Made by a program: the position numbers and the translations under genes. Shown in pieces: positions 3,120 through 22,433 of a stretch of 24,645 nt of DNA (its first letter is position 1; each line of letters opens with the position of its first letter). Where the stretch lies: the IMG/VR virus record IMGVR_UViG_3300027782_000349, positions 1-24,645 of that record; one strand, 5' to 3'. A model generated the notes under the pieces. That model was not told where the DNA came from and made no database searches. It was given only the letters and a program-made list of their open reading frames with translations. The stretch is from a virus.

Positions 3120-4678
3120 TGGCTTTCTTTGGTTTCGGTCGCGTCTCCAGCGTCCAGAAAGATCTACGCAAGGCGCAAGAGCGCAACGCAAATCTCAAGC
3201 GTGCATATGCAGCCGTTACAAGCAATCGACTTACATCTGATTGGATCAGTCTTGGCACAAGTGCCGACAGTGAAATCAAAAATAGCCTCAGGCTGCTTCG
3301 AAATCGCGCTCGCCAGTTGGTTCGTGATTCTGACTTTGCCAAGGCGGCATTGAGAGCTGTTCGCAACAACGTGGTTGGCACGGGCATTAAGCACCAAGCG
3401 CAGGTGCAATTCCAGCGTGGCGGCAAGCTTGATGATCGGATCAACCGGTTGATTGAAAAAGCATGGGATGAATGGACGTGTGCTGACACCTGCCACGTTG
3501 CTGGTCAATTGAGCTGGCAGGACATCCAGCGGCTGTCGATTACTTCGATGATCGAATCAGGCGAAGTTTTTATTCGTCTGGTCAACCAAACCTTCGGTGA
3601 CAGCAAGGTTCCGCTTGGTCTTGAAGTGCTTGAAGCTGATCTACTTGATGACGATTACACCGGCGTCGAAGCAAACGGCAACCGCGTCCGCATGGGCGTT
3701 GAAATTAACGAATGGGGCCGTCCAGTTGCCTATCACTTCCTGCGCACGCACCCTGGTGACTACCAATTCATTGGCACTGCGGCTGTAGTCAAGAGGCGAC
3801 AACGCATCCCTGCAAAAGATGTCATCCACCTGTATTCCATTGAGCGCCCCGGCCAGACTCGTGGCGTCACAGGATTTGCCTCAGCAATCATGCGTCTCCG
3901 CAACCTAAGTGGTTACGAGGAGGCTGAGATTGTGGCTGCACGGGCATCGTCAGCAATGATGGCGTTTGTGCGCACGCCAGACCAGGAGCTGTTTGAAGAC
4001 GGCAAGTTCCAAGATGATTCGGTCCTTGATTTCTCTCCCGGTTCAATCCGTCGTTTGGCACCTGGAGAGGAGATGCAATTCTTCTCGCCTAACCGGCCTG
4101 ACGATGCGTTTACGCCTTTTGTGGCGCAGATGCTTCGTGCCGTTGCTTCGGGTGTTGGCTGCTCCTACACCCAAGTCAGTTCTGACTTCAGCAAGAGCAA
4201 TTACAGCTCTTCACGGCTTGAGCTGCTGGAAACGCGGACGCATTACAAAACTTTGCAACAGTATTTGGTTGAAGCATTGTGTGAGCGCGTCTACGAGCGT
4301 TGGTTGGAAATGGCTGTTATGGCAGGCGTGTTGAATCTGCCTGGCTACGAGATCGATCCTGAGCGCTATGAGGAGTCCAAGTGGATTCCCCCTGCTGCTC
4401 AATTTGTGGACCCACAGAAGGAAGCTGATGCTTACAAGTCATTGATTCGGAACGGCATCATGACTCTTTCCCAGGTCATCGCCTTACATGGCGGTGATTT
4501 TGAGGAACAGATGCGTCAGCGGGCGCATGAGCTGGCGTTGGCCGATGAGCTTGGCATTGTGCTTGATAGTGATCCCAGTCAGGTCAGTGGATCTGGCATA
4601 CAACAGCCGCAAATGGTGGAAGATACCGCTGAACCCGATAATCTGGAAGAAGATGAGGTTGAGGAACTAGATTCATGA
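3119..4678 (+). CDS. Portal protein (lambda gpB family)
   Basis: The portal is the dodecameric ring at one capsid vertex through which DNA enters and leaves and to which terminase and tail attach. The 519-residue protein matches the lambda portal family in size and in recognisable segments: an N-terminal RNARQLVRDSDFAKAALR region, GTGIKHQAQ, and the conserved SSDFSKSNYSSSR stretch followed by a long helix at roughly residues 350-390. The C-terminal 50 residues are acidic and low in complexity (DNLEEDEVEELDS). A ribosome site GTGAGG lies at 3105-3110. The stop overlaps the ATG of the protease-capsid gene by 4 bases. No separate lambda gpC-type protease is present; that job is taken by the HK97-type protease in the next gene. 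Confidence 0.93.
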   Translation: MAFFGFGRVSSVQKDLRKAQERNANLKRAYAAVTSNRLTSDWISLGTSADSEIKNSLRLLRNRARQLVRDSDFAKAALRAVRNNVVGTGIKHQAQVQFQRGGKLDDRINRLIEKAWDEWTCADTCHVAGQLSWQDIQRLSITSMIESGEVFIRLVNQTFGDSKVPLGLEVLEADLLDDDYTGVEANGNRVRMGVEINEWGRPVAYHFLRTHPGDYQFIGTAAVVKRRQRIPAKDVIHLYSIERPGQTRGVTGFASAIMRLRNLSGYEEAEIVAARASSAMMAFVRTPDQELFEDGKFQDDSVLDFSPGSIRRLAPGEEMQFFSPNRPDDAFTPFVAQMLRAVASGVGCSYTQVSSDFSKSNYSSSRLELLETRTHYKTLQQYLVEALCERVYERWLEMAVMAGVLNLPGYEIDPERYEESKWIPPAAQFVDPQKEADAYKSLIRNGIMTLSQVIALHGGDFEEQMRQRAHELALADELGIVLDSDPSQVSGSGIQQPQMVEDTAEPDNLEEDEVEELDS

Positions 4679-7107
4679 GTAGGTATTTTCGAGAGCTTGC
4701 CAAACGCGCAAAGGTAGGCGATAGCGAAATCAACCTGATGCCAACTGAAGGCATGAGGACTGAAGCGAAGCGCTACAAAGATTGGAAAGCAGACGGCAAA
4801 GCAGGCGGCACGGACGTTGCCGCTAGTCGGGCCAACCAGATCTTGTCTGGCGAAGAGTTGTCGCCTGCCGTTGCAATCGAAATGAACGCATGGTTTGCTC
4901 GCCACGAAGTTGACAAAAAAGGCAAAGGGTTTACTCCTGGTGACAACTACCCGTCTCCTGGTCGGGTAGCATGGGCGGCATGGGGCGGAGACGCCGGACA
5001 ATCGTGGAGCGCCATGAAATCATCTGCCATTAAAAAAGCACAGGAGCGATCCATGGAACCAATCATTGAAGGTCGTCCCTATCCAAATGAGCACGCCGCT
5101 CGTTTGAAAGAACCGGGGCAGTACGACTCGATTCGTCGCGTAAACAATGAAGGCGGCGAAGGTGTTGATTTTATTTACGGCATTAAAGATGGCACGTCTG
5201 AAATCCAAGCCATTCGTTTTGACGCAGATCGGTTTTCTCCTGCCGAAGCGCGCAAATGGTTGACTGACCATGATTTTAATGCAATTAGTTTTGAAGCTGC
5301 AACCATTGAACGCTCCGAAGAAGAAATGCGCAAAATTGAAGGCGAATCGTTTCAGCGTGCGCTGGTAACTGATTTTCGTGCTGCTGGCGAGGAACGCACC
5401 ATTGAGTTTCCTTTTGCCTCTGAGGCTCCTGTTGAGCGTTATTTCGGCATGGAAGTACTGAGCATGGATGAGAGCGCCATGGACCTCAGCCGCCTGAACG
5501 ATGGCGCCCCGCTGCTGTTCCAACATGATCCTGATCGGATCGTTGGCGTTGTCGAGCGTGCCTACATCAAAGACAAGCGCGGCTATGCCAAGGTCAAGAT
5601 GGCCAACAACGACCTTGGTCGTGAGATGCAGGAATTAATCAAAGACGGCATTCTCCGCAATGTCAGCTTTGGTTACAGGATTAACTCGATGGAAACAGAC
5701 AACAGCACTGACCCAATCACGTACCGCGCTACGTCATACCAACCGTTCGAAATCTCGCTGGTGACCGTGCCTGCTGATCAATCAGTAGGCATAGGTCGAA
5801 CTCTTACTATTAGTGAGAGTTCAACTACGGCCTCAGCCGTGACCAATTCACCTCTCTCGGAGTTAAAACCCGTGGAACCCACCTTCGACATGGAGGCGAT
5901 CCGCGCTGAGGCCGCACAGGCCAAGGCAAAGGAGCTTTCAGAAATGATTGCCCTAGGCAATCGCACCAACAACAGCGACATGGCCCAGGAGTTCATCACG
6001 AATTCCCGTGGTCTTGATGAGCTGCGCACTGCACTTCTTGAAAAAATGAGCACTCCCGCCCAGCCTGTGGACACCACAGTCGCCGACATCGGCCTTTCCA
6101 AAGAGGAGACCCGGTCTTTCTCTTTCCTTCGCGCCATTAACTACCTGGCCAACCCTGCTGATCGCCAAGCGCGTGAAGCTGCTGGCTTTGAAATTGAAGC
6201 TTCCGAAGCTGCTGCCGCCAAGCTTGGCCGTCAGAGCCGTGGCATCACGATCCCCCAGGAAGTGCTTCGCCGCGACCTGAGCGTTGGCGTAGCTACCGCT
6301 GGTGGCAACTTGGTTGCTACCGAGCTGGACTCTGCTTCCTTTATTGACCTGCTTCGCAACGCTTCCGCCCTTGATCAGGCTGGCGCCACCGTGCTGACCG
6401 GTTTGGTTGGCAACGTTGCAATTCCTCGCCAGTCTGGCGCTGGGACCGGTTACTGGGTGTCGGAGGCAGGTGCTCCTACTGAAAGCCAGCAGACCGTCGA
6501 TCAGGTCAGCATGACCCCTAAGACGGTTGCTGCTTTCACTGATTACAGCCGCCGCCTGATGCTTCAGTCTTCGATCGACATCGAGAACATGGTTCGCCGT
6601 GATCTTGCTGCCGTTCTCGGCCTGAAGATTGACCTTGCTGGTCTTTACGGCACTGGTTCCAACAGTGAGCCTTTAGGTCTGAAGAACACCACCGGAATCG
6701 GCACTGAAGACTTCGCCGCTGATGCTCCTACCTTCGCTGAGGTGGTTGCAATGGAATCTGACGTTGCCGCTGCCAACGCTCTGCTCGGTTCGCCTGTTTA
6801 TCTGATGAATGCTGCCATGCGCGGCAATCTGAAGACCACGAAGAAGGACGCTGGCTCTGGCATCTTCATCATGGAGAACGGTGAGGTCAACGGTTACCGC
6901 GGCGTGCTGTCCAACCAAGTGGCATCGAATGATCTCTGGTTCGGTAACTTCGCCGACTTGATCATCGGTTACTGGTCTGGCCTGGACATCATGGTGGACC
7001 CCTACACCAACAGCACCAGCGGCACCGTTCGCGTGGTTGCAATGCAGGATGTTGACGTGGCCATCCGTCATCCTGAATCCTTCAGCCGTGGTAACAACAC
7101 TCTCTGA
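4675..7107 (+). CDS. Prohead protease fused to HK97-type major capsid protein
   Basis: One 810-residue frame carries four segments. Residues 1-125 form a small domain with ARHEVDKKGKGF and GRVAWAAWGGDAGQSW, a module seen in other phage proteins whose role I do not know. Residues 128-215 form a second accessory domain (HAARLKEPGQYD, SEIQAIRFDADRFS). Residues 225-380 are an HK97-family (S78) prohead protease, with H284 in LLFQHDPDRI, S331 in NVSFGY and the EISLVTVPAD segment at 359-368; H284 and S331 sit where the catalytic His and Ser are expected. Residues about 400-520 look like a helical delta (scaffold) domain. Residues about 520-810 are the HK97-fold capsid protein (TAGGNLVATELD, GNVAIPRQSG, YGTGSNSEPLGL). 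The product is probably cleaved to release mature capsid subunits. Internal starts at 5053 and 5872 may give shorter products. The frame is intact across all joints, so it is not a broken gene. Confidence 0.9.
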   Translation: MSRYFRELAKRAKVGDSEINLMPTEGMRTEAKRYKDWKADGKAGGTDVAASRANQILSGEELSPAVAIEMNAWFARHEVDKKGKGFTPGDNYPSPGRVAWAAWGGDAGQSWSAMKSSAIKKAQERSMEPIIEGRPYPNEHAARLKEPGQYDSIRRVNNEGGEGVDFIYGIKDGTSEIQAIRFDADRFSPAEARKWLTDHDFNAISFEAATIERSEEEMRKIEGESFQRALVTDFRAAGEERTIEFPFASEAPVERYFGMEVLSMDESAMDLSRLNDGAPLLFQHDPDRIVGVVERAYIKDKRGYAKVKMANNDLGREMQELIKDGILRNVSFGYRINSMETDNSTDPITYRATSYQPFEISLVTVPADQSVGIGRTLTISESSTTASAVTNSPLSELKPVEPTFDMEAIRAEAAQAKAKELSEMIALGNRTNNSDMAQEFITNSRGLDELRTALLEKMSTPAQPVDTTVADIGLSKEETRSFSFLRAINYLANPADRQAREAAGFEIEASEAAAAKLGRQSRGITIPQEVLRRDLSVGVATAGGNLVATELDSASFIDLLRNASALDQAGATVLTGLVGNVAIPRQSGAGTGYWVSEAGAPTESQQTVDQVSMTPKTVAAFTDYSRRLMLQSSIDIENMVRRDLAAVLGLKIDLAGLYGTGSNSEPLGLKNTTGIGTEDFAADAPTFAEVVAMESDVAAANALLGSPVYLMNAAMRGNLKTTKKDAGSGIFIMENGEVNGYRGVLSNQVASNDLWFGNFADLIIGYWSGLDIMVDPYTNSTSGTVRVVAMQDVDVAIRHPESFSRGNNTL
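5042..5055 (+). promoter_or_regulatory. Putative internal ribosome site and ATG start
   Basis: AGGAG at 5042-5046 precedes an in-frame ATG at 5053 (codon 127 of the 810-residue frame) by 6 bases. The start falls exactly between the first accessory domain and the second. Initiation here would give a 684-residue protease-capsid product lacking the N-terminal domain. The motif could also arise by chance from the coding sequence. Confidence 0.45.
5859..5874 (+). promoter_or_regulatory. Putative internal start for free major capsid protein
   Basis: GGAG at 5859-5862 precedes an in-frame GTG at 5872 (codon 400) by 9 bases. The GTG lies in the linker between the protease and the delta-domain-like helix (VEPTFDMEAIRAEAAQ). 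Initiation here would give a 411-residue capsid precursor, close to the usual length of free HK97-type capsid proteins. This would solve the stoichiometry problem of a 1:1 protease-capsid fusion. Confidence 0.4.
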
Positions 7108-7683: not shown

Positions 7684-7962
7684 ATGGCGTTAACTGAAGA
7701 TCTAGGAATGTTCCTTGCTGATTTTGGCGTCACCTGCGTGGCTGGCGCCGTAACAGCAAATGGAATTCTGGATACTCCAAGCCAGGTAATCAGCGATGGG
7801 ATGGTCTTAACGACTGACTACACGCTGACCGCTAGATCTTCAGATTTTGGTAGTCTCGTTCGCGGTGGTTCAATCACTGTGGGCGGGACTGCTTTTACTG
7901 TTCGGGAGACAATGCTGATTGACGACGGAGCTTTTGTTCAAATTGCACTGCAAAAGACATGA
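7684..7962 (+). CDS. Head-tail joining protein (lambda gpFII-like)
   Basis: The 92-residue protein resembles the gpFII/Gifsy-2 type head completion family. It has an N-terminal LTEDLGMFLADFGVT helix, a strand with GILDTPSQV, and a C-terminal barrel with GSITVGGTAFTVRE and a final VQIALQKT strand. In lambda, gpFII binds beneath gpW and forms the surface on which the finished tail docks. Position between the capsid and tail terminator genes fits. The start ATG at 7684 follows the previous stop by 5 bases, and the stop overlaps the next ATG (ATGA). Confidence 0.68.
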   Translation: MALTEDLGMFLADFGVTCVAGAVTANGILDTPSQVISDGMVLTTDYTLTARSSDFGSLVRGGSITVGGTAFTVRETMLIDDGAFVQIALQKT

Positions 7963-8597
7963 GCGCAACATTAAATACAAATAGCCGTGCGGATTGGGCG
8001 AGTATTAACCCAGTGCTTGCGCAGGGTGAAGCTGGCTATGAATTGGATTTGGGTAATTTAAAAATTGGGGACGGGCGCAAGGCTTGGAGCAGCTTGCCCT
8101 ATCATGGCTCGCCTGGGCACTGGGGATCGTTTTATGACACAACTTCCCAGACTGCCACTGCAAACACTCCAACGGCAATCAAGTTACGGTCAACTGATAC
8201 GTTAAGCCGTGGCATCCGAATTGAATCAGAATCGCGCATAACGTTTGAGCGGACTGGCGTTTACAGCATTATTTATTCAATTCAATTTAGTAACACAGGA
8301 TCTAGTATCTACGATTCAGATATATGGTTGCGAAAAAACGGCGGCGGCACTGCTGGCAATTTGACAAATACTAATACACGTTTTAGTGTAATTGCAAAAC
8401 ATGGAAGCATTGAAGGCAATATTGTCGGCACCGTAAATTACGTTTTGCGTGTTGAGGCCAACGATTACTTGGAATTGATCTGGGCAACTTCAAGCGCTGA
8501 AGCATATATTCATGCAGAAGGCGTTCAAACAAGTCCCTTTGCCCATCCAGGCATTCCAGGCATTATCTGCACAGCCACTCAAGTTGCTTCCGCATAA
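7959..8597 (+). CDS. C1q/TNF-like adhesin or head-fibre protein
   Basis: The 212-residue protein has two domains. Residues 8-50 are the short head-binding module found at the start of many phage fibre proteins (WASINPVLAQGEAGYELD, KIGDG, WSSLPYHG). Residues about 56-208 look like a C1q/TNF-type jelly roll: a SFYDTTSQTA opening, FERTGVYSIIYSIQFS in the middle, a repeated-strand pattern, and a GIPGIICTATQV end. Such folds form trimers that bind host surfaces. The gene sits between head-joining and tail-terminator genes, not in the tail-fibre cassette, and is visibly richer in A and T than its neighbours. It may decorate the head or neck, and it looks like a late addition. Host-surface binding is inference from the fold. 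Confidence 0.65.
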   Translation: MSATLNTNSRADWASINPVLAQGEAGYELDLGNLKIGDGRKAWSSLPYHGSPGHWGSFYDTTSQTATANTPTAIKLRSTDTLSRGIRIESESRITFERTGVYSIIYSIQFSNTGSSIYDSDIWLRKNGGGTAGNLTNTNTRFSVIAKHGSIEGNIVGTVNYVLRVEANDYLELIWATSSAEAYIHAEGVQTSPFAHPGIPGIICTATQVASA

Positions 8598-13839: not shown

Positions 13840-14732
13840 TGGCATACGCAAGCTGGACTGCCACTACCAGTTACGCCGTCGGTGCCATTGTCCGCGCCAC
13901 GACGGTGCAGGATTTTGGCTTGGTGTTCAAATGCACCACAGCGGGCACTTCTGGTGCATCTGCACCGGCATGGCCAACGCTGATTGATGGCACTACGGTT
14001 GATGGCACGGTTACCTGGACGGGGATCAGTGCGGTCTACGAAGACCTCAGCGTGCTGGAACCGAACGCCATCATCGAGCTGTTCCAGCTGCACCTTGACG
14101 CCACGCTGCATGGCACTGGCGACATCTTTTACTTCCACAACGGCGTGAATGCTGCCGTGACCGGCAACGTGGTTTGGAACGGCCAGTCTTATGTGCGCCT
14201 GCCGCTTGAGGCCACTGGCTTTGACTACAGCAGCAGCGGCAGCCTGCCACGCCCAAAACTGGCCGTCAGCAATATCGGCAGCAGCATTACGGCATTGCTG
14301 CTTCAGGTCAACCTGATCACCACAGGCAACGACCTCGGCGGCGCAAAGGTTGTTCGCATCCGCACGCTTAAAAAGTATCTGGATGGTGCAGCCGGTGCCG
14401 ATCCCCACGCCAAATTCCCTGACGAGATCTGGTATGTAGACCGTAAGTCAAACGAAAACCGCGCTGTTGTCGAGTTCGAGCTGGCCAGCAAATTTGATCT
14501 TGTGGGCGTGATGCTTCCACGGCGTCAGGTCATTGCCAATGTTTGCCAGTGGATCTATCGCGGTGGCGAGTGTGGTTACACCGGCAGCAACTATTGGAAC
14601 GCTCAAGATCAAGTTGTCGGCACTTTGGCTTTGGATGCGTGCGGCAAACGGATTTCATCCTGCAAGTTACGGTTTGGCGCCACGGCTGAATTACCATTTG
14701 GCAGTTTCCCTGGCGCGGGTCTATCCAAGTGA
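13839..14732 (+). CDS. Minor tail protein L with extra N-terminal domain
   Basis: Residues about 66-297 match lambda gpL, a tail-tip protein. Four cysteines near the C-terminus, C236 (NVCQW), C245 (GECGYTG), C268 (DACGK) and C275 (SSCKL), are spaced by 9, 23 and 7 residues, and lambda gpL is known to bind an iron-sulfur cluster through four conserved Cys in this region. Residues 1-64 are additional: WTATTSYAVGAIVRAT, CTTAGTSGASAPAWP and DGTVTWTGI, a small aromatic-rich module of the kind found in carbohydrate-binding and fibre proteins. A sugar-binding role is inference. The protein is longer than lambda gpL (232 residues) by about this domain. The stop overlaps the next ATG (the start at 14729 lies within ...AAGTGATAA). 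Confidence 0.85.
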   Translation: MAYASWTATTSYAVGAIVRATTVQDFGLVFKCTTAGTSGASAPAWPTLIDGTTVDGTVTWTGISAVYEDLSVLEPNAIIELFQLHLDATLHGTGDIFYFHNGVNAAVTGNVVWNGQSYVRLPLEATGFDYSSSGSLPRPKLAVSNIGSSITALLLQVNLITTGNDLGGAKVVRIRTLKKYLDGAAGADPHAKFPDEIWYVDRKSNENRAVVEFELASKFDLVGVMLPRRQVIANVCQWIYRGGECGYTGSNYWNAQDQVVGTLALDACGKRISSCKLRFGATAELPFGSFPGAGLSK

Positions 14733-15442
14733 TAATCAGCAAAGCACTACAAACAACAATCCTGGAGCACGCGCAAGCTGAGGATCCACGCGAGTGCTGC
14801 GGCTTGGTTGCTGTGGTCAAGGGGCGCAAGCGGTATTTTCCCTGCACCAACCTGGCCGATACACCCGACGAGCATTTTGTGCTCAGTGGCGAGGATTACG
14901 CAGCAGTTGAGGATCAAGGCGAAATCGTGGCCATCGTCCACAGCCACCCAGCAACCAATCCCAATCCAAGTCAGGCGGACCGCGTGGCCTGCGCAAAATC
15001 CGGCTTGCCGTGGTTCATCATCAATCCGAAGACTGGTGGCTCCAGCCTGACGCTGCCCGAGGCATACGAGTTGCCGTACGTGGGCCGGGAGTTTGTGTTT
15101 GGCGTAGTGGATTGCTACACGATGTGCCGGGACTGGTACGGCAAAGAATTTGGCCTCCAGCTCAGCGACTACAACCGCCGCGACAAGTTTTGGGAACGTG
15201 GCGAAGACCTGTACCTAGACAACTTCCATCGTGAAGGCTTCCACAAGGTGCCGTTTGAGGAGCTGCAATACGGCGATGCCTTACTGATGCAGCTTGGCTC
15301 CAGCTTGCCTAACCACGCAGCCATCTACATTGGCGACCAGCAGATCCTGCACCACGTTCAAGACCGACTTAGCAGTAGGGACGTGCTGGGCGGCTACTAT
15401 ATCAAGAGCACTGCCATGGTCCTACGGCATGAAAGTCGTTAA
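14729..15442 (+). CDS. Tail-tip peptidase K (JAMM + NlpC/P60)
   Basis: The 237-residue protein has the two-domain plan of lambda gpK. The first half is a JAB1/MPN-like metalloprotease with E22 (PRECCGL), HSHP (H71, H73), S81 and D84 forming the JAMM motif, so the metal site looks complete. The second half is an NlpC/P60 domain with catalytic Cys C129 (GVVDCYTMCRDWY), H196 in NHAAIYIGD and H208/H209 in ILHH. Such proteins are thought to process tail-tip proteins and cut peptidoglycan during assembly or entry. The start is not ATG: the frame begins GTGATAATC at 14729, so the first codon is GTG, overlapping the gpL stop. The end overlaps gpI by 14 bases. Confidence 0.9.
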   Translation: MIISKALQTTILEHAQAEDPRECCGLVAVVKGRKRYFPCTNLADTPDEHFVLSGEDYAAVEDQGEIVAIVHSHPATNPNPSQADRVACAKSGLPWFIINPKTGGSSLTLPEAYELPYVGREFVFGVVDCYTMCRDWYGKEFGLQLSDYNRRDKFWERGEDLYLDNFHREGFHKVPFEELQYGDALLMQLGSSLPNHAAIYIGDQQILHHVQDRLSSRDVLGGYYIKSTAMVLRHESR

Positions 15443-16085
15443 GGTCTACGGCGCCCTACGCAAGTATTTGGGGCAATGCCGTTTCCAGTTTGAAGCCGAC
15501 ACACCAGCGCAGGCGATCAAGGCATTGTGCGTCAACTTTCCTGGCCTGGACAAGTGGCTGCTGGATAGTGAGCAGGATGGTGTTGCATACCGCGTCAGCA
15601 TCGGCAAGGAAAAAGTTACCGAAGATGATCTATCGCCATTGGTAATGCCTTGGAGTGAACGCCAAGTTTTCAGCATTACGCCTGTAATTGCTGGCGCTGG
15701 CGGCATTGGTGCAAAAATTGGTATTGGCATTGGTTTAATTGCAATTTCTTTTTTGCTTCCAGGCGCCGGTATTTTTGGTACTACCAGTATTTTTGGAGCA
15801 AGTGCTGCTACTGCTGGAGCTGCTGGTTTTGCAACTGCATTGGGTACTGCATTTAGTGCAATTGGTGCATCATTGATTTTGGGTGGCGTAGCACAACTTA
15901 TTTCACCACAGCAAACTTATTCAAGTACAGAACGTGGTAAAGATGCAGCACGATTTGAATCGTTTACTTTTTCAGGCGTTACCAACACTGTGCAGCAAGG
16001 TATGCCAGTTCCGATTGTTTATGGCCGTGCCTACATTGGTTCGGCTGTGATCAGCAGTGGTCTTGACGTGGATCAACTGATATGA
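15429..16085 (+). CDS. Tail assembly protein I (gpI-like)
   Basis: The frame is open from further upstream, but ATG at 15429 gives the expected N-terminus MKVVKVYGALRKYLG, a ubiquitin-like opening typical of gpI, and a 218-residue product of the family's length. Residues 1-80 are the gpI beta-grasp domain (ITPVIAGAGG at its end). Residues 80-155 are a long Gly-, Ala- and Ile-rich hydrophobic stretch (IGIGIGLIAISFLLPGAG). The C-terminal GMPVPIVYGRAYIGSAV motif is typical of the family. Lambda gpI is needed to assemble the tip with J but is not found in the mature virion. It overlaps the K gene by 14 bases and the J gene by 4 bases (ATGA). Confidence 0.87.
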   Translation: MKVVKVYGALRKYLGQCRFQFEADTPAQAIKALCVNFPGLDKWLLDSEQDGVAYRVSIGKEKVTEDDLSPLVMPWSERQVFSITPVIAGAGGIGAKIGIGIGLIAISFLLPGAGIFGTTSIFGASAATAGAAGFATALGTAFSAIGASLILGGVAQLISPQQTYSSTERGKDAARFESFTFSGVTNTVQQGMPVPIVYGRAYIGSAVISSGLDVDQLI

Positions 16086-19000
16086 GCACTTATCGTTCGA
16101 TTCAAGGTTCCGGCGGCGGCGGTGGCGGCGGCGGCTGCTTTCTTGGCCGCACTTTGGTGCGCACACCTGATGGTGAATGCCAGATTGACCAGCTAAAACC
16201 TGGCGATCAGGTTCTTAGTTTTGACGATCATGGCATCATCAAGGCTGGCACCGTGCTCAAAGTGCATGAGCATGAGAATGAGCGCGTCATTCGTTATGGC
16301 CTGTGGGGTGGCACGTTTCTTGATGCTACGCCCAACCACTGGGTACTAAATCAATTCAATGCCTTTGTTGAGATCGGCACGTTAGGCGCCGATGATTGCT
16401 TGGTGGATGAAAACAATCACCTGCGGCCAATTGTTAGCAAAACAGATTTATGTAACGGCACGGTTTATAACCTGACAGTTGAAGGACACCACACATTTAT
16501 TGCTGGTGGCATCCGTGTCCACAATGCTGGCCTTGGTGTAGGCATTGCAGGTTCTGGCGGTGGTGGTGGCAAGGGCGGCGGTGGGCAAGCTTACGTTCCA
16601 ACCGAATCTGACGACTCACTCCAGTCAGTTCAATACGGCAGCGTTCTTGACCTGCTTAGTGAAGGTGAAATTGAAGGCATTGAAGGTGGTGTCAAAGGCA
16701 TTTATCTTGATGGCACGCCAATTCAAAGCAGCACTGGCACAGATAACTTTACAGGTTACACAGTGGTTACCCGTAATGGCACGCAGGCACAAGCATATAT
16801 TCCAAACACCAACGGCACAGAGTCAGAAAAAGGCGTAAACGTAGAAGCCACTGCCAGCACCTCAGTTACTCGCACAATTAGTGACACGGATGTTGACCGT
16901 GTGCGGGTTACGGTCCAGATGCCAGCTTGCCAAATTATTGAAGATGACGGCGACATTGTTGGCAACAGCGTAGACATTCAGATTCAAGTTCAATACAACG
17001 GTGGCGGGTTCACAACTGTTGTAGCTGACACCATCAGCGGCAAAACAACCAACAGTTATCAGCGCGACTACATGCTGACGCTGAGCGGTGCGTTCCCGGT
17101 TGATATTCGCTTGGTGCGTATCTCGCCAGATTCTGGCAGCGCACGCAATCAAAACCGCACTTACCTTTACAGCTACACCGAAATCATTGATGAAAAACTG
17201 CGCTACCCAAACAGCGCATTAACTTTCCTGCGGTTTGATAGCCGCCAGTTCAACAGCATTCCGTCCCGCAAATACTTGGTGCGGGGCATCAAGATCCAGC
17301 TACCCAGTAACGCCACGGTCGATACCACTAACTACCTTGGCCGCGTCACGTATTCCGGCGTGTGGGATGGAACTTTTGGCGCTGCTACATGGTGTGCAGA
17401 CCCAGCGTGGTGTTTATGGGATCTGCTGACCAATACCCGCTACGGAGCATCCATCCCCGCCAGCAGCTTAGATCGCTACGACTTTTATTCAATCAGCCAA
17501 TATTGCAACGGCCTGGTCAGTGATGGCAAAGGCGGCCAAGAACCACGCTTCCTGTGCAACCTGCTGCTTAACAGCCGTGACGAGGTTTATAACGTCATCC
17601 AAGAGTTCACGGCACTATTCCGTGGCATTGCCTACTACGGTGCTGGCACCTTGGTTGTCAACCAGGACAGGCCATCAGATCCGCAATACGTCATCACTGC
17701 TGCCAACGTAATTGACGGCATTTTTAACTACTCAGGCACATCACAGAAAGCACGCGCCAGCACCGCAACTATTGGATACCAGACCTACGAAGGCTTAGGT
17801 GAAGTCGAATTTGAGTACGTTGAAGATGCTGCGGCAATCGCCAAGTACGGCATCATCAACCGTGATGTCAAGCTGCTCGGTTGCTACAGCCAGGGGCAAG
17901 CGCACCGCGCTGGCAAGTGGACGCTTCTGAGTGAGCAGAACCTTACTGAAACCGTCACGTTTGCAGTGTCCCTGGACAGTGGAATCGTGTTGCGTCCCGG
18001 CATGGTCATCAGTGTTGCCGACTCAATGAAGGCTGGTTCGCGTCGTGGTGGCCGGATCAGCAGCGCAACCACAACCACGGTCACAATCGACAGCACTGAA
18101 GATCTGAGCGTCATCGTTGCGAATGGCGCAACACTCACAGTCATGTTGCCTACTGGCTCGGCTGAACTGCGTCCTATCCAAAGCATCAGTGGCACGGTTG
18201 TCACGGTCGGTAATGCGTTCAGCGAGGCACCCAACGCTCAAGGTATTTGGGTTATTGAAACGACAGACGTCGAGCTGCAAACATTTCGTGTTATCACAGT
18301 TACTGAGTCAGAGCCTGGCGTTTATGGCGTAACAGCACTGGCGTACAACTCAACCATTTACGACGCAATTGAAAATAATCTACAAATTCAACCGCGTGAC
18401 ATTACAAGCCTTTCGACAATACCAGACCCAGTTGGAAATATTGCTGGCACCGAACACTTGTATCAAGATGGCAACAGTGTATTAACAGCATTTGACCTTA
18501 GCTGGATCGCGCCTAAAAATGTCAGTAGTTTCCGCATACAACACAGGTTAAACAATAATAACTGGATTACGTTTGAAACCACATCGCCATCGGCGCGAAT
18601 CAACAGCCTTATTGCTGGCACGCTTCAAGTTCAAATTCAATCAATTAGTAGCATTGGCAAGGCCAGTCCAATTACAGCAGCATCCTTTTCTATTACAGGC
18701 AAAACTGCCCTGCCAGGAGACGTTCAAAATCTTACCATCGAGCCAATTAACGCCAACAGCGCCAGGCTGCGCTGGAGCCAGACGGTTGACCTTGACGTGG
18801 CAGTTGGTGGCACCGTTCACATCCGCCACAGCAACTTGACCGATGGCACAGCAACCTGGAGCAATTCGGTTGACCTGATCCCAGCAAAAGCTGGTGCGGC
18901 CACAGAAGCCATTGTGCCATTGGTGGAAGGTGAAATCCTGGTCAAGTTTGAAGATGACGGCGGCAGGCAATCAACCAATGAAACCAGCGTCATTGTTGAT

Positions 19001-19813
19001 TTCCCTGATGCGCTTGGGTATTTCCCAATTCAGGTGCGCCGTGAAGATCAAGACGCCCCACCATTCCAGGGCACAAAAACCAATGTTTTTTACAGCGATA
19101 TTTTTGATGCGCTCTGTCTCGACGGCAGTTCGTTTATTGATGACATTCCAAACGTAGACTTAATTCCCGCGTTTGATTGGCTTGGCAATGTCCAGGCAAG
19201 TGGCACATACAACTTTGCCAATGCGCTTGACCTTGGCACTGCTTATGCTGTTGACTTGAAGCGGTACTTTGTCACCCGTGGTTTCTACCCTAGCGACCTG
19301 ATTGATTCAAGACTGGAATTGATTGACCTATGGGATGACTTTGATGGCGGCGTGATTGATGCAGTCAACGCAAAACTTTACATGCGTGCGACAAACGACA
19401 ATCCTGCTGGCACGCCCACATGGACCGCCTGGCAGGAATTTGTTAATGGCACCTTCAACGGTCGGGCATTTGAGTTCAAAGCAGAACTGACGTCAACCAA
19501 TGCATCCCAGAACATTTTGATCGACGGTTTGGGATACGAGGCAACGTTCCAGCAACGGCAAGACCAAAGCACGGCAACCATTGCCAGCGGTGCTGGCGCC
19601 AAGACGGTGACCTTCGACAAGGCGTTTTACACGGCTGGTGGGACAAGCCTCCCAAGCGTGGGCATCACAGCGCAAAACATGGTCAGTGGTGACTACTTCA
19701 CGGTTGGCACCATTACGGGCACCACGTTTACGGTTACCTTCCGCAACAGTGGTGGAACTGCTGTTGACCGCAATTTCACCTACACCGCGACTGGGTATGG
19801 CAAGGCACTGTAG
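16082..19813 (+). CDS. Tail-tip host specificity protein J with Hint insert
   Basis: J is the central hub and host-binding protein of the tail tip. The 1243 residues are laid out as follows: a short N-terminus ending in eight Gly (11-18); an intein-like Hint domain, C19-N148; a second Gly-rich linker to 169 (GSGGGGGKGGGG); the conserved J start YVPTESDDSLQSVQYGSVLD at 171-190; hub domains to about 770, including the segments VDRVRVTVQMP and TYSGVWDGTFG; two fibronectin-III-like domains at about 781-872 and 878-975; and a C-terminal receptor-side region, 980-1243, ending in a strand-rich module (SGDYFTVG, ATGYGKAL). Lambda J is 1132 residues, so the excess is close to the 130-residue Hint insert. 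ATGA overlap with I gives coupling. The C-terminal part is the likely determinant of host range. Confidence 0.92.
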   Translation: MSTYRSIQGSGGGGGGGGCFLGRTLVRTPDGECQIDQLKPGDQVLSFDDHGIIKAGTVLKVHEHENERVIRYGLWGGTFLDATPNHWVLNQFNAFVEIGTLGADDCLVDENNHLRPIVSKTDLCNGTVYNLTVEGHHTFIAGGIRVHNAGLGVGIAGSGGGGGKGGGGQAYVPTESDDSLQSVQYGSVLDLLSEGEIEGIEGGVKGIYLDGTPIQSSTGTDNFTGYTVVTRNGTQAQAYIPNTNGTESEKGVNVEATASTSVTRTISDTDVDRVRVTVQMPACQIIEDDGDIVGNSVDIQIQVQYNGGGFTTVVADTISGKTTNSYQRDYMLTLSGAFPVDIRLVRISPDSGSARNQNRTYLYSYTEIIDEKLRYPNSALTFLRFDSRQFNSIPSRKYLVRGIKIQLPSNATVDTTNYLGRVTYSGVWDGTFGAATWCADPAWCLWDLLTNTRYGASIPASSLDRYDFYSISQYCNGLVSDGKGGQEPRFLCNLLLNSRDEVYNVIQEFTALFRGIAYYGAGTLVVNQDRPSDPQYVITAANVIDGIFNYSGTSQKARASTATIGYQTYEGLGEVEFEYVEDAAAIAKYGIINRDVKLLGCYSQGQAHRAGKWTLLSEQNLTETVTFAVSLDSGIVLRPGMVISVADSMKAGSRRGGRISSATTTTVTIDSTEDLSVIVANGATLTVMLPTGSAELRPIQSISGTVVTVGNAFSEAPNAQGIWVIETTDVELQTFRVITVTESEPGVYGVTALAYNSTIYDAIENNLQIQPRDITSLSTIPDPVGNIAGTEHLYQDGNSVLTAFDLSWIAPKNVSSFRIQHRLNNNNWITFETTSPSARINSLIAGTLQVQIQSISSIGKASPITAASFSITGKTALPGDVQNLTIEPINANSARLRWSQTVDLDVAVGGTVHIRHSNLTDGTATWSNSVDLIPAKAGAATEAIVPLVEGEILVKFEDDGGRQSTNETSVIVDFPDALGYFPIQVRREDQDAPPFQGTKTNVFYSDIFDALCLDGSSFIDDIPNVDLIPAFDWLGNVQASGTYNFANALDLGTAYAVDLKRYFVTRGFYPSDLIDSRLELIDLWDDFDGGVIDAVNAKLYMRATNDNPAGTPTWTAWQEFVNGTFNGRAFEFKAELTSTNASQNILIDGLGYEATFQQRQDQSTATIASGAGAKTVTFDKAFYTAGGTSLPSVGITAQNMVSGDYFTVGTITGTTFTVTFRNSGGTAVDRNFTYTATGYGKAL
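16136..16525 (+). other. Mini-Hint (intein-like) domain inside J
   Basis: The 130-residue domain (J residues 19-148) has every core Hint element: Cys1 at C19 (CFLGRTLVRTPDG), IDQLKPGDQVLSFD at 35-48, the block B TxxH at T83-H86 (DATPNHW), block F VEGHHTFIAGG at 133-143, and block G ending in His147-Asn148. No homing endonuclease is inserted. The residue after Asn148 is Ala149 rather than Cys, Ser or Thr, so canonical splicing by attack of a +1 nucleophile cannot occur. Bacterial intein-like (BIL) domains have the same property and undergo N- or C-terminal cleavage or alternative splicing. Both ends lie in glycine tracts, which would tolerate cleavage, excision or permanent retention. Confidence 0.88.
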
Positions 19814-21305: not shown

Positions 21306-21925
21306 GCCCTGTACGTCTTAACGGCTCAACATCGGGTTACACCGAACTCTCCGCCCCAGCCGTGGCGGGTTCCAACACGCTGCTGTTGCCGACGGGTGCG
21401 GGTAGCGCCTACCAAGTGGTGCGTAACGGTGCCACCGCAGGGTCGCTGGAGTTCACCGACAAGATTGTCAGCGGCACCGCGCAGAACAGCACCAGCGGCA
21501 CCAGCATTGACTTCACTGGCATTCCGAGCTGGGTGAAGCGGGTGACGGTGATGTTTAACCAAGTTAGCACAAGTGGTTCAAGTCATTTGCTAATACAAAT
21601 TGGCAATGGATCAATTATTTCATCTGGGTATCCAACTTCGACAAGTTGTGTCATTAACAATGCACCCTCCCCTTTCTTTATCTCATCAAACAGTGGTTTC
21701 ATACTTTATAATGGTGCAGCGTCAAATGTTTATAACGGAGCAATGTTGATAATGAATGTTACGTCTAACACTTGGACAGCGCAGCACACTATAGGTGGCA
21801 ATGATACGAGCAGATTTGGAGGCGGTAGTCTTGCCCTCTCCGGCACCCTAGACCGCGTTCGCATCACCACCGTGAACGGCACCGACACCTTCGACGCCGG
21901 GTCGATAAATATTATGTATGAATAG
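21302..21925 (+). CDS. Tail fibre / receptor-binding-type protein
   Basis: The 207-residue protein starts with a fibre-like attachment module (LNGSTSGYTELSAPAVAGSN, TLLLPTGAGSAYQVVRNG), common at the N-termini of marine phage fibres. The rest is Ser-, Thr-, Gly- and Asn-rich with strand patterns (SIDFTGIPSWVKRVTVMFNQ, HTIGGNDTSRFGGGS), ending in TTVNGTDTFDAGSINIMYE, a typical end for an adhesin jelly-roll domain. The central part (bases about 21560-21790) is visibly richer in A and T than the flanks, which suggests that the receptor-binding part was exchanged while the ends stayed. Its 3' end overlaps the HNH gene by 8 bases. Confidence 0.7.
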   Translation: MSPVRLNGSTSGYTELSAPAVAGSNTLLLPTGAGSAYQVVRNGATAGSLEFTDKIVSGTAQNSTSGTSIDFTGIPSWVKRVTVMFNQVSTSGSSHLLIQIGNGSIISSGYPTSTSCVINNAPSPFFISSNSGFILYNGAASNVYNGAMLIMNVTSNTWTAQHTIGGNDTSRFGGGSLALSGTLDRVRITTVNGTDTFDAGSINIMYE

Positions 21926-22433
21926 CATGAAACCACATATCACCCTAGACCGATTAAAAGAGCTGGCACACTATGACCCAGCTACAGGGCAGTTTGTGTT
22001 GAAGAAACACCGCAAAGGAACCACCAGAAAGATTGGTGATGCACTGGGAAGTAAGAAAAAACCTGGCTACTTAGAAGCTTGCTTTGACCAGCGTATCTAC
22101 CTTTTGCATCGGCTGGCTTACTTCTACATGACAGGAGAGGTACCCCAAACTGTTGACCACATCAATAGCAACGGGATGGACAACAGGTGGGACAACCTAC
22201 GGTCGGTCACCCATCAGCAAAACATGGAAAACATAAAGAAAATGCGCCCCGACAATACGACCGGCTACAGGGGTGTGCACAGGTGGCACGGCAAGTATCG
22301 TGCCAAGATAGTAGTCAACAAAAAGCAAATCCACCTTGGCACATTCTCAACAGCAGAGGAAGCGGCAAAAGCTTATGAGGCTGCCAGGCCAAGCATCCAC
22401 AGTTTCTACGTCCCTCAGGAGGTGATCCGATGA
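21918..22433 (+). CDS. HNH endonuclease with AP2-like DNA-binding domain
   Basis: The 171-residue protein is a free-standing homing-type nuclease. The N-terminal part has LLHRLAYFYMTG at 62-73 and the HNH core with D80-H81 (VDHINSNGMDNRWDNLRSV), N93 and N102. The C-terminal part, 114-155, is an AP2/ERF-like DNA-binding module (TGYRGVHRWHGKYRAKI, HLGTFSTAEEAAKAYEAA). Such genes spread between phages by cutting sites that lack them. It lies between two fibre genes and overlaps both (8 bases before, 4 bases after), so it is fitted exactly into the operon. An alternative ATG is at 21927. The C-terminal codons contain the ribosome site for the next gene. Confidence 0.9.
   Translation: MNSMKPHITLDRLKELAHYDPATGQFVLKKHRKGTTRKIGDALGSKKKPGYLEACFDQRIYLLHRLAYFYMTGEVPQTVDHINSNGMDNRWDNLRSVTHQQNMENIKKMRPDNTTGYRGVHRWHGKYRAKIVVNKKQIHLGTFSTAEEAAKAYEAARPSIHSFYVPQEVIR
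22417..22428 (+). promoter_or_regulatory. Extended Shine-Dalgarno (AGGAGGTGATCC)
   Basis: Twelve bases, AGGAGGTGATCC, are fully complementary to the usual 3' end of bacterial 16S rRNA (GGATCACCTCCT). The core AGGAGG lies 7 bases before the ATG at 22430. The site sits inside the last codons of the HNH gene and serves the following fibre gene. It is by far the strongest ribosome site seen in the window. Confidence 0.85.

Follow-up and report, generated by a model that had tools for sequence, protein, structure and literature searches.

A putatively self-removing, A-type-BIL-like Hint cassette in the poly-glycine N-terminal tail of the phage tail-tip protein J

BUBL BILs separate ubiquitin-like domains within a polyprotein, and the bacterial intein-like (BIL) domain of C. 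thermocellum reportedly has Ala at the +1 position. Described BILs belong to bacterial proteins, where they are located in variable regions (PMC7765530, PMC5874633). Type-A BILs contain Cys1 and a C-terminal His-Asn pair and have no nucleophile at +1 (PMC4031507). In the route proposed for them, a thioester forms at Cys1, the Asn cyclises, and the amine released in this step attacks the thioester; cleavage products are often in the majority (PMC4031507). Ligation by aminolysis was proposed for the C. thermocellum BIL, and splicing of the Magnetospirillum BIL was obtained only after its +1 residue had been changed to Cys (PMC4031507).

The current work concerns a Hint domain near the N-terminus of gene J, the tail-tip or hub gene of a virus. 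The window, that is, the whole stretch of DNA analysed, contains 24,645 nucleotides (IMG/VR record IMGVR_UViG_3300027782_000349, positions 1 to 24,645). Its relevant features are as follows.

14729-15442, plus strand: further feature listed, upstream of the gene I homologue
15429-16085, plus strand: homologue of gene I (type: tail assembly protein I), with the conserved motif PVIAGAGG after its N-terminal part
16082-19813, plus strand: gene J, tail-tip/hub protein of 1243 codons, with the Hint domain near the N-terminus
16082-16135, plus strand: N-extein MSTYRSIQGSGGGGGGGG, 18 residues, the last part being the first poly-Gly tract
16100-16135, plus strand: tail motif copy 1, IQGSGGGGGGGG, the uninterrupted site in Hint-less relatives
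16136-16525, plus strand: Hint/BIL domain, 130 residues from Cys1 to His129-Asn130, endonuclease insert absent
16136-16138, plus strand: Cys1 codon, predicted nucleophile of the N-S acyl shift, conserved in 162/162
16328-16339, plus strand: block B TxxH (T-P-N-H), with Thr65 and His68 each in 162/162
16463-16492, plus strand: block F VYNLTVEGHH, with the invariant His119
16520-16525, plus strand: C-terminal His-Asn, predicted site of Asn cyclisation, conserved in 162/162
16526-16543, plus strand: C-flank AGLGVG, with a non-nucleophilic Ala at +1 and an invariant Gly at +2
16544-16585, plus strand: tail motif copy 2 (IAGSGGGGG), then K-GGGG, the counterpart of the native tail of J in Hint-less relatives
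16610-18060, plus strand: hub core of J, with which the Hint-blind sampling was run and the core tree built

With the C. thermocellum BIL (PDB 2LWY), the J-Hint shares an endonuclease-free mini Hint fold, Cys1, His-Asn, a non-nucleophilic +1 residue and a variable host region. It differs in being located in a phage hub, at a fixed site among poly-Gly repeats and with AGLG at +1 to +4, and in being present or absent between near-identical genes. Unlike that of the BUBL BILs (6Y75, 6TMM), the N-extein of J is a Gly-ended tail of 4-21 residues (median 14 in relatives) with no ubiquitin-like domain. Class 1 mini-inteins (gp41-1, RecA, DnaB) have the same fold and the catalytic blocks A, B, F and G, but the J-Hint has no +1 Cys, lies outside a conserved active site, and matches mini-inteins with lower profile scores than the BIL. 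PT-HINT (PF07591) is named for pre-toxin proteins, whereas no toxin part was seen in the protein studied here, the rest of which is hub. The J of cultured lambda-like phages shares the core of window J, and searches with three J-Hint domains did not find the Hint domain there. No report of a Hint domain in J was found among the searched papers on Hint domains and inteins, BILs, phage tails and J.

An earlier note, made by reading the sequence, had claimed a complete Hint domain inside J at 16136-16525. The domain occupies exactly these coordinates, with 130 residues in frame in an ORF of 1243 amino acids, and the note had placed Cys1, the TxxH (TPNH, domain residues 65-68), the terminal His-Asn and the +1 Ala correctly. 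Positions 16082-16525 translate as MSTYRSIQGSGGGGGGGG followed by CFLG...RVHN, and the Ala codon is at 16526-16528. The profile search that the note proposed, in which the domain was matched by Hint, PT-HINT, intein_Nterm and intein_Cterm, upheld the Hint/BIL identity, as did the closest solved structures, which are BIL domains. NCBIfam intein_Cterm gave 24.8 bits against a cut-off of 15.6, and Pfam PT-HINT (PF07591) gave 33.1 bits on the isolated domain and 27.3 on the whole of J, with a gathering cut-off of 27.7. The best PDB match by profile was 2LWY (E=4.5e-7 with a single sequence, 5.1e-15 with a 37-member profile); Tetrahymena BUBL BIL2 and class 1 mini-inteins scored behind it. The AlphaFold2 model of the domain has a pLDDT of 89 and a pTM of 0.85, with values below 50 in two flanks only. 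In a Foldseek search with this predicted fold, BUBL BIL2 and 2LWY led the solved families; the best match was the BUBL BIL (PDB 6Y75, 6TMM; E=8e-11), and 2LWY had TM scores of 0.81/0.86. The top viral model in Foldseek was an uncultured-virus protein of 1016 residues named 'putative gp62'. Since gp62 of Burkholderia phage Bcep176 is J, the Hint-J architecture may already be present in databases without discussion.

On pairwise and profile scores, predicted fold and motifs, the domain is classed as A-type-BIL-like. It has a compact Hint fold of 130 residues without endonuclease, a nucleophile (Cys) at position 1 and an intein-like C-terminal His-Asn (each in 162/162 distinct domains) and a non-nucleophilic +1 residue (A, K or G) in 159/161, the others being one Ser and one Thr. 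The part of J that houses it, the poly-Gly N-tail, is non-conserved and varies among relatives. Other classes of Hint domain were considered and rejected. A type-B BIL would lack block G, and RVHN is conserved here. A class 1 intein needs Cys, Ser or Thr at +1 and is expected in a conserved functional site; the window has Ala, the family has Ser or Thr in 2/161 only, and the site is a Gly-rich N-tail. Class 3 inteins have no nucleophile at position 1 and use a WCT motif instead, and Cys1 is invariant here. A hedgehog Hog domain has a sterol-recognition region and no terminal Asn step; here a terminal His-Asn is found and the J hub follows directly.

Downstream of the Hint domain, J is a lambda-type gpJ (Pfam FNIII-A_GpJ, 3.6e-38; PHROG central tail fiber J, 5e-233), and the sequence joining the Hint domain to the hub core is AGLGVGIAGSGGGGGKGGGG. 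Homologues of L, K (JAB and NlpC/P60) and I are located upstream. The capsid gene of the window has weak DNA similarity to the Synechococcus siphophages S-CBS1 and S-CBS3. In the single ORF at 4675-7107, the capsid protein and an S78-type prohead protease are fused, and a small protein with an Mtd_N (major tropism determinant N-terminal) domain is encoded at 7959-8597, between the capsid and tail tube genes. A free-standing HNH endonuclease gene (HNH_3, weak AP2) is located among the tail fibre genes at 21918-22433.

IMG/VR was scanned with the domain, with hub cores and with a short internal motif, which gave 162 distinct complete domains, all on uncultured virus contigs. Cys1, Thr65, His68, His119, His129 and Asn130 are each present in 162/162, although the internal-motif set was picked by TPNHWVLN, so that block B was partly selected for, while Cys1, block F, block G and +1 were not. 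Cys1 and the His-Asn are thus not freely lost, and the residues for both half-reactions are invariant, which supports the self-processing that had been expected. The +1 residue, readable in 161 domains, is Ala in 147, Lys in 7, Gly in 5, Ser in 1, Thr in 1 and Cys in none. The absence of a +1 nucleophile, noticed before in the window, is therefore a real conserved state (Ala, Lys or Gly in 159/161 distinct domains). Gly is found at +2 in 161/161 readable domains and at -1, before Cys1, in 160/162. Of the residues that the earlier note had named for checking, Cys1, TxxH and HN are conserved, and Ala is the +1 residue in 147/161.

Twenty-five columns are conserved at 99% or more, reaching well past the active site; recent spread or an additional role may account for this. 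Median dN/dS is 0.049 for the Hint domain versus 0.050 for the hub core (the compared pairs lack independence, and some approach saturation), and by this measure the two appear to be under equal purifying selection. Only two damaged Hint copies were seen, both in otherwise open J genes: one has lost the first 18 model positions in frame (L228), the other part of block F (L211).

By BLAST, 214 of 229 Hint-bearing ORFs match the core of window J. Among the other 15, several are cut off within or just past the Hint domain, others run into sequence resembling a J tail or the start of the core, and a few have a Lys+1 tail and then a different hub type. Wherever it can be read, the downstream protein is a J-type hub. 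Nine loci (L171, L179, L188, L197, L205, L220, L266, L267, L270) have the different hub type and a Hint domain with Lys at +1 (KGGGK); AGLG is missing from them and the domain lies within a GGKGG/KGGGK-like tract. The Hint domains of these nine may represent an independent insertion. Five further loci (L194, L216, L226, L229, L269) contain divergent J-Hints, in which Gly at +1 followed by G[HY]R.. stands in place of AGLG.

A Tblastn search with three J-Hint query domains found no Hint-bearing J among 50,697 cultured-phage records; the Hint matches, each below 36% identity, fell exclusively in helicases, terminases and proteins that are hypothetical or lack annotation. As 1486 of these records gave a J-core alignment covering 80% or more of the query, J-Hints are so far a feature of uncultured phages. 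Many uncultured aquatic phages carry the domain. In the genome collection the single match was a contig of a cyanobacterial MAG (L083).

Hint-blind scans were conducted with the J core minus its N-terminus, and the Hint state of each match was assigned by profile search. The 80 contigs nearest to the window core included 39 with Hint, 39 without and 2 truncated; a second query, a J core that falls outside the group of the window in the core tree, gave 39 with, 37 without and 4 truncated. Both samples consist of the nearest neighbours of two queries, near-copies among them, and do not amount to a census. The core tree requires 17 or more changes of Hint state, of which at least 7 are forced by well supported branches. 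In two pairs (L038/L101 and L162/L153), cores that are 99.2% identical (4/483 residues differ) have opposite Hint states. An empty, Hint-less tail reads, for example, MSTYRSIQGSGGGGGGGGKGGGGGG, and that of AG-345-A17, a single-cell marine virus, MTDAPKNIIGSGGGGSPPPPP. Because the Hint domain is missing from about half of the nearest, even near-identical, J genes, assembly of J and function of the tip do not appear to need it. The suggestion in the earlier note that a switch in the hub could time tip maturation is, given the same genes, not supported.

In the DNA alignment of filled and empty alleles, the junction is located within the tract of Gly codons. The native J tail motif is IxG[AS]GGG, and the poly-Gly tracts beside the cassette repeat it. 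Since IxG[AS] flanks the Hint domain on both sides in 139/162, the parts of the filled gene can be ordered as start, first tail copy, Hint, AGLG(x), second tail copy and hub. AGLG was found in 0/77 Hint-less tails, which implies that it is gained and lost together with the Hint domain. The two flanks of one locus are more alike than shuffled ones (second motif residue 33% versus 18%; 0/2000 shuffles reached the observed value; relatedness not removed).

In one pair of loci (L218/L264), DNA identity is 0.92-0.97 in the Hint domain and 0.83-0.88 in the 60-base flanks, and falls to 0.65 just upstream and 0.62-0.71 downstream. The reverse swap was seen in another pair (L242/L190), with a Hint identity of 0.61 inside close flanks of 0.82-0.88. 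From these identities, the cassette appears to move as a DNA island bounded by Gly-codon tracts, and such islands fit a cassette that is transferred and lost when poly-Gly codon repeats recombine. A homing element was rejected: the domain has no endonuclease insert, and the free HNH gene at 21918-22433 had no relative in any fetched locus, though flanks were limited; this gene was likewise set aside as the mobilising agent.

The reading that best covers these observations, and which we hold to be probable on balance, is that the poly-Gly N-tail of J houses a mobile A-type-BIL-like Hint cassette which has no endonuclease and is kept catalytically intact, and for which we infer self-removal. The domain is very probably catalytically active. 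By the known chemistry of type-A BILs, Cys1 and the Gly-ended N-extein would form a thioester, and cyclisation of Asn130 would free the C-side as Ala-Gly-Leu-Gly-J. The new amine could then attack the thioester, giving ligation by aminolysis; alternatively, hydrolysis of the thioester would end in cleavage. Both Hint junctions are flexible Gly, and the +1 residue, mostly a small non-nucleophile or Lys, has Gly after it in every case. Correct folding and intact residues do not guarantee activity, as such a domain may react slowly or not at all between its natural flanks.

Whichever way the reaction ends, the Hint domain would leave J, and the remaining tail would be equivalent to that of Hint-less relatives (IxG[AS]GGGG-K-GGGG). 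The ligation product would read M..IxGSGGGG-AGLG.. plus the native-type tail, and the cleavage product AGLG.. plus the native-type tail. That Hint is absent from most J in virions is likely. The chance that the ligated form is the main product is put slightly below even, and that of the cleaved form at the same level. The tryptic peptide diagnostic of unprocessed J would be VHNAGLGVGIAGSGGGGGK; ligated J is predicted to give SIQGSGGGGGGGGAGLGVGIAGSGGGGGK, and cleaved J AGLGVGIAGSGGGGGK at the protein N-terminus.

The window contains no in-frame ATG, GTG or TTG from the His-Asn to the hub core, and such codons are absent in 110/183 loci and present in 73/183; in the listed examples of the latter, the +5 Val or Leu codon is the candidate start, as GTG or TTG. 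With no start codon behind the Hint domain, Hint-free J would most simply be made after translation. Translation restart was rejected for the window and judged unlikely in the 73/183 relatives that have such a codon. The cassette would persist by removing itself, being gained and lost by recombination at repeated Gly tracts and dispensable to J.

The near-half frequencies in two groups could instead reflect selection for a condition-dependent benefit. The Hint domain would then be a functional processing module that gives J a distinct mature tail, either an AGLG- end or a longer ligated one, favoured in some hosts or conditions, and selection rather than self-removal would hold it at intermediate frequency. 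The strict conservation of both the Cys1-side and Asn-side half-reactions and of AGLG at +1 to +4 is consistent with this, as is the occurrence of Hint in roughly half of the J genes sampled from two distant groups, and hub variability is described as concentrated in the J N-terminus, close to the cell surface (PMC13243795). However, Hint-less J genes with near-identical cores are equally common and have the same tail minus AGLG, which makes such a module rather unlikely. Because of these near-identical genes, we rank a self-removing passenger above a conditional benefit.

More narrowly, self-removal could involve C-terminal cleavage only: the N-extein and Hint would form a self-removing leader, and the chemistry of the N-junction would be irrelevant. 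The C-flank past AGLG does resemble the start of the native J tail, and the N-extein is short and variable, but Cys1 and the block-B TxxH, which serve the N-side thioester, are invariant and Gly is kept at -1 in 160/162. If the Asn side alone mattered, Cys1 and the -1 Gly would drift, and no drift is seen; this favours use of the N-side reaction as well, though a structural reason for Cys1 is possible, and cleavage at the C-terminus alone is considered unlikely. As a further idea, the Hint thioester might carry the Gly-ended J tail (IxG[AS]GGGG), which is similar to the Gly-rich stretch behind the ubiquitin-like domain of gpI, and hand it over to an amine of a protein at the tail tip or on the host surface. 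Such a transfer device is quite improbable; if true, it would mean covalent tip crosslinks or tagging, like Gly-ended ubiquitin-like domains followed by BILs.

N-terminal J extensions are known in other phages (PMC13243795), and the Hint domain might accordingly be kept in the virion as an inert decoration of the tail tip; this is very improbable, as Cys1, both His and the His-Asn are present in 162/162, which pure structure does not need, and damaged copies amount to only two. A conventional class 1 mini-intein whose +1 nucleophile had drifted away in the lineage of the window alone would agree with the matches to intein profiles and mini-intein structures and with an intein-like presence/absence polymorphism, but it hardly merits consideration. 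The absence of +1 Cys is general, with Ser or Thr in two members only, which refutes a loss confined to the window lineage; the site is a variable Gly tail rather than a conserved active site, and BILs are the top sequence and fold matches.

The favoured cassette would be an apparent self-processing element in the lambda-type tail hub, which is among the best studied parts of viruses. Hundreds of natural variants and matched Hint-less genes make two open questions directly testable. One is whether BILs that lack a +1 nucleophile undergo splicing or cleavage in their natural context; the other is how such domains spread without a homing endonuclease, here apparently via recombination at poly-Gly codon repeats. 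If active, these domains would also offer protein engineering processing domains of 130 residues that are nucleophile-free and Gly-flanked.

A related motif is found in the neighbouring gene. In most loci, gpI homologues contain P-V-[ILV]-x-G-A-G after their N-terminal part, and the PVIAGAGG of window gpI resembles the IxG[AS]GGG tail of J (16097-16135). Lambda gpI has PRVAGAKSGG and Bcep176 gpI has PVIIGSKSGG, while the J tail of Bcep176 reads ISGAKGGGGGGGGG; these are related Gly-Lys variants. The JAB domain of gpK was proposed by Iyer et al. 2006 to cut gpI at the Gly that ends its ubiquitin-like domain (PMC1779556). By its resemblance to this possible peptidase site, the J tail may also be a site for gpK (JAB), a point offered here as a lead.
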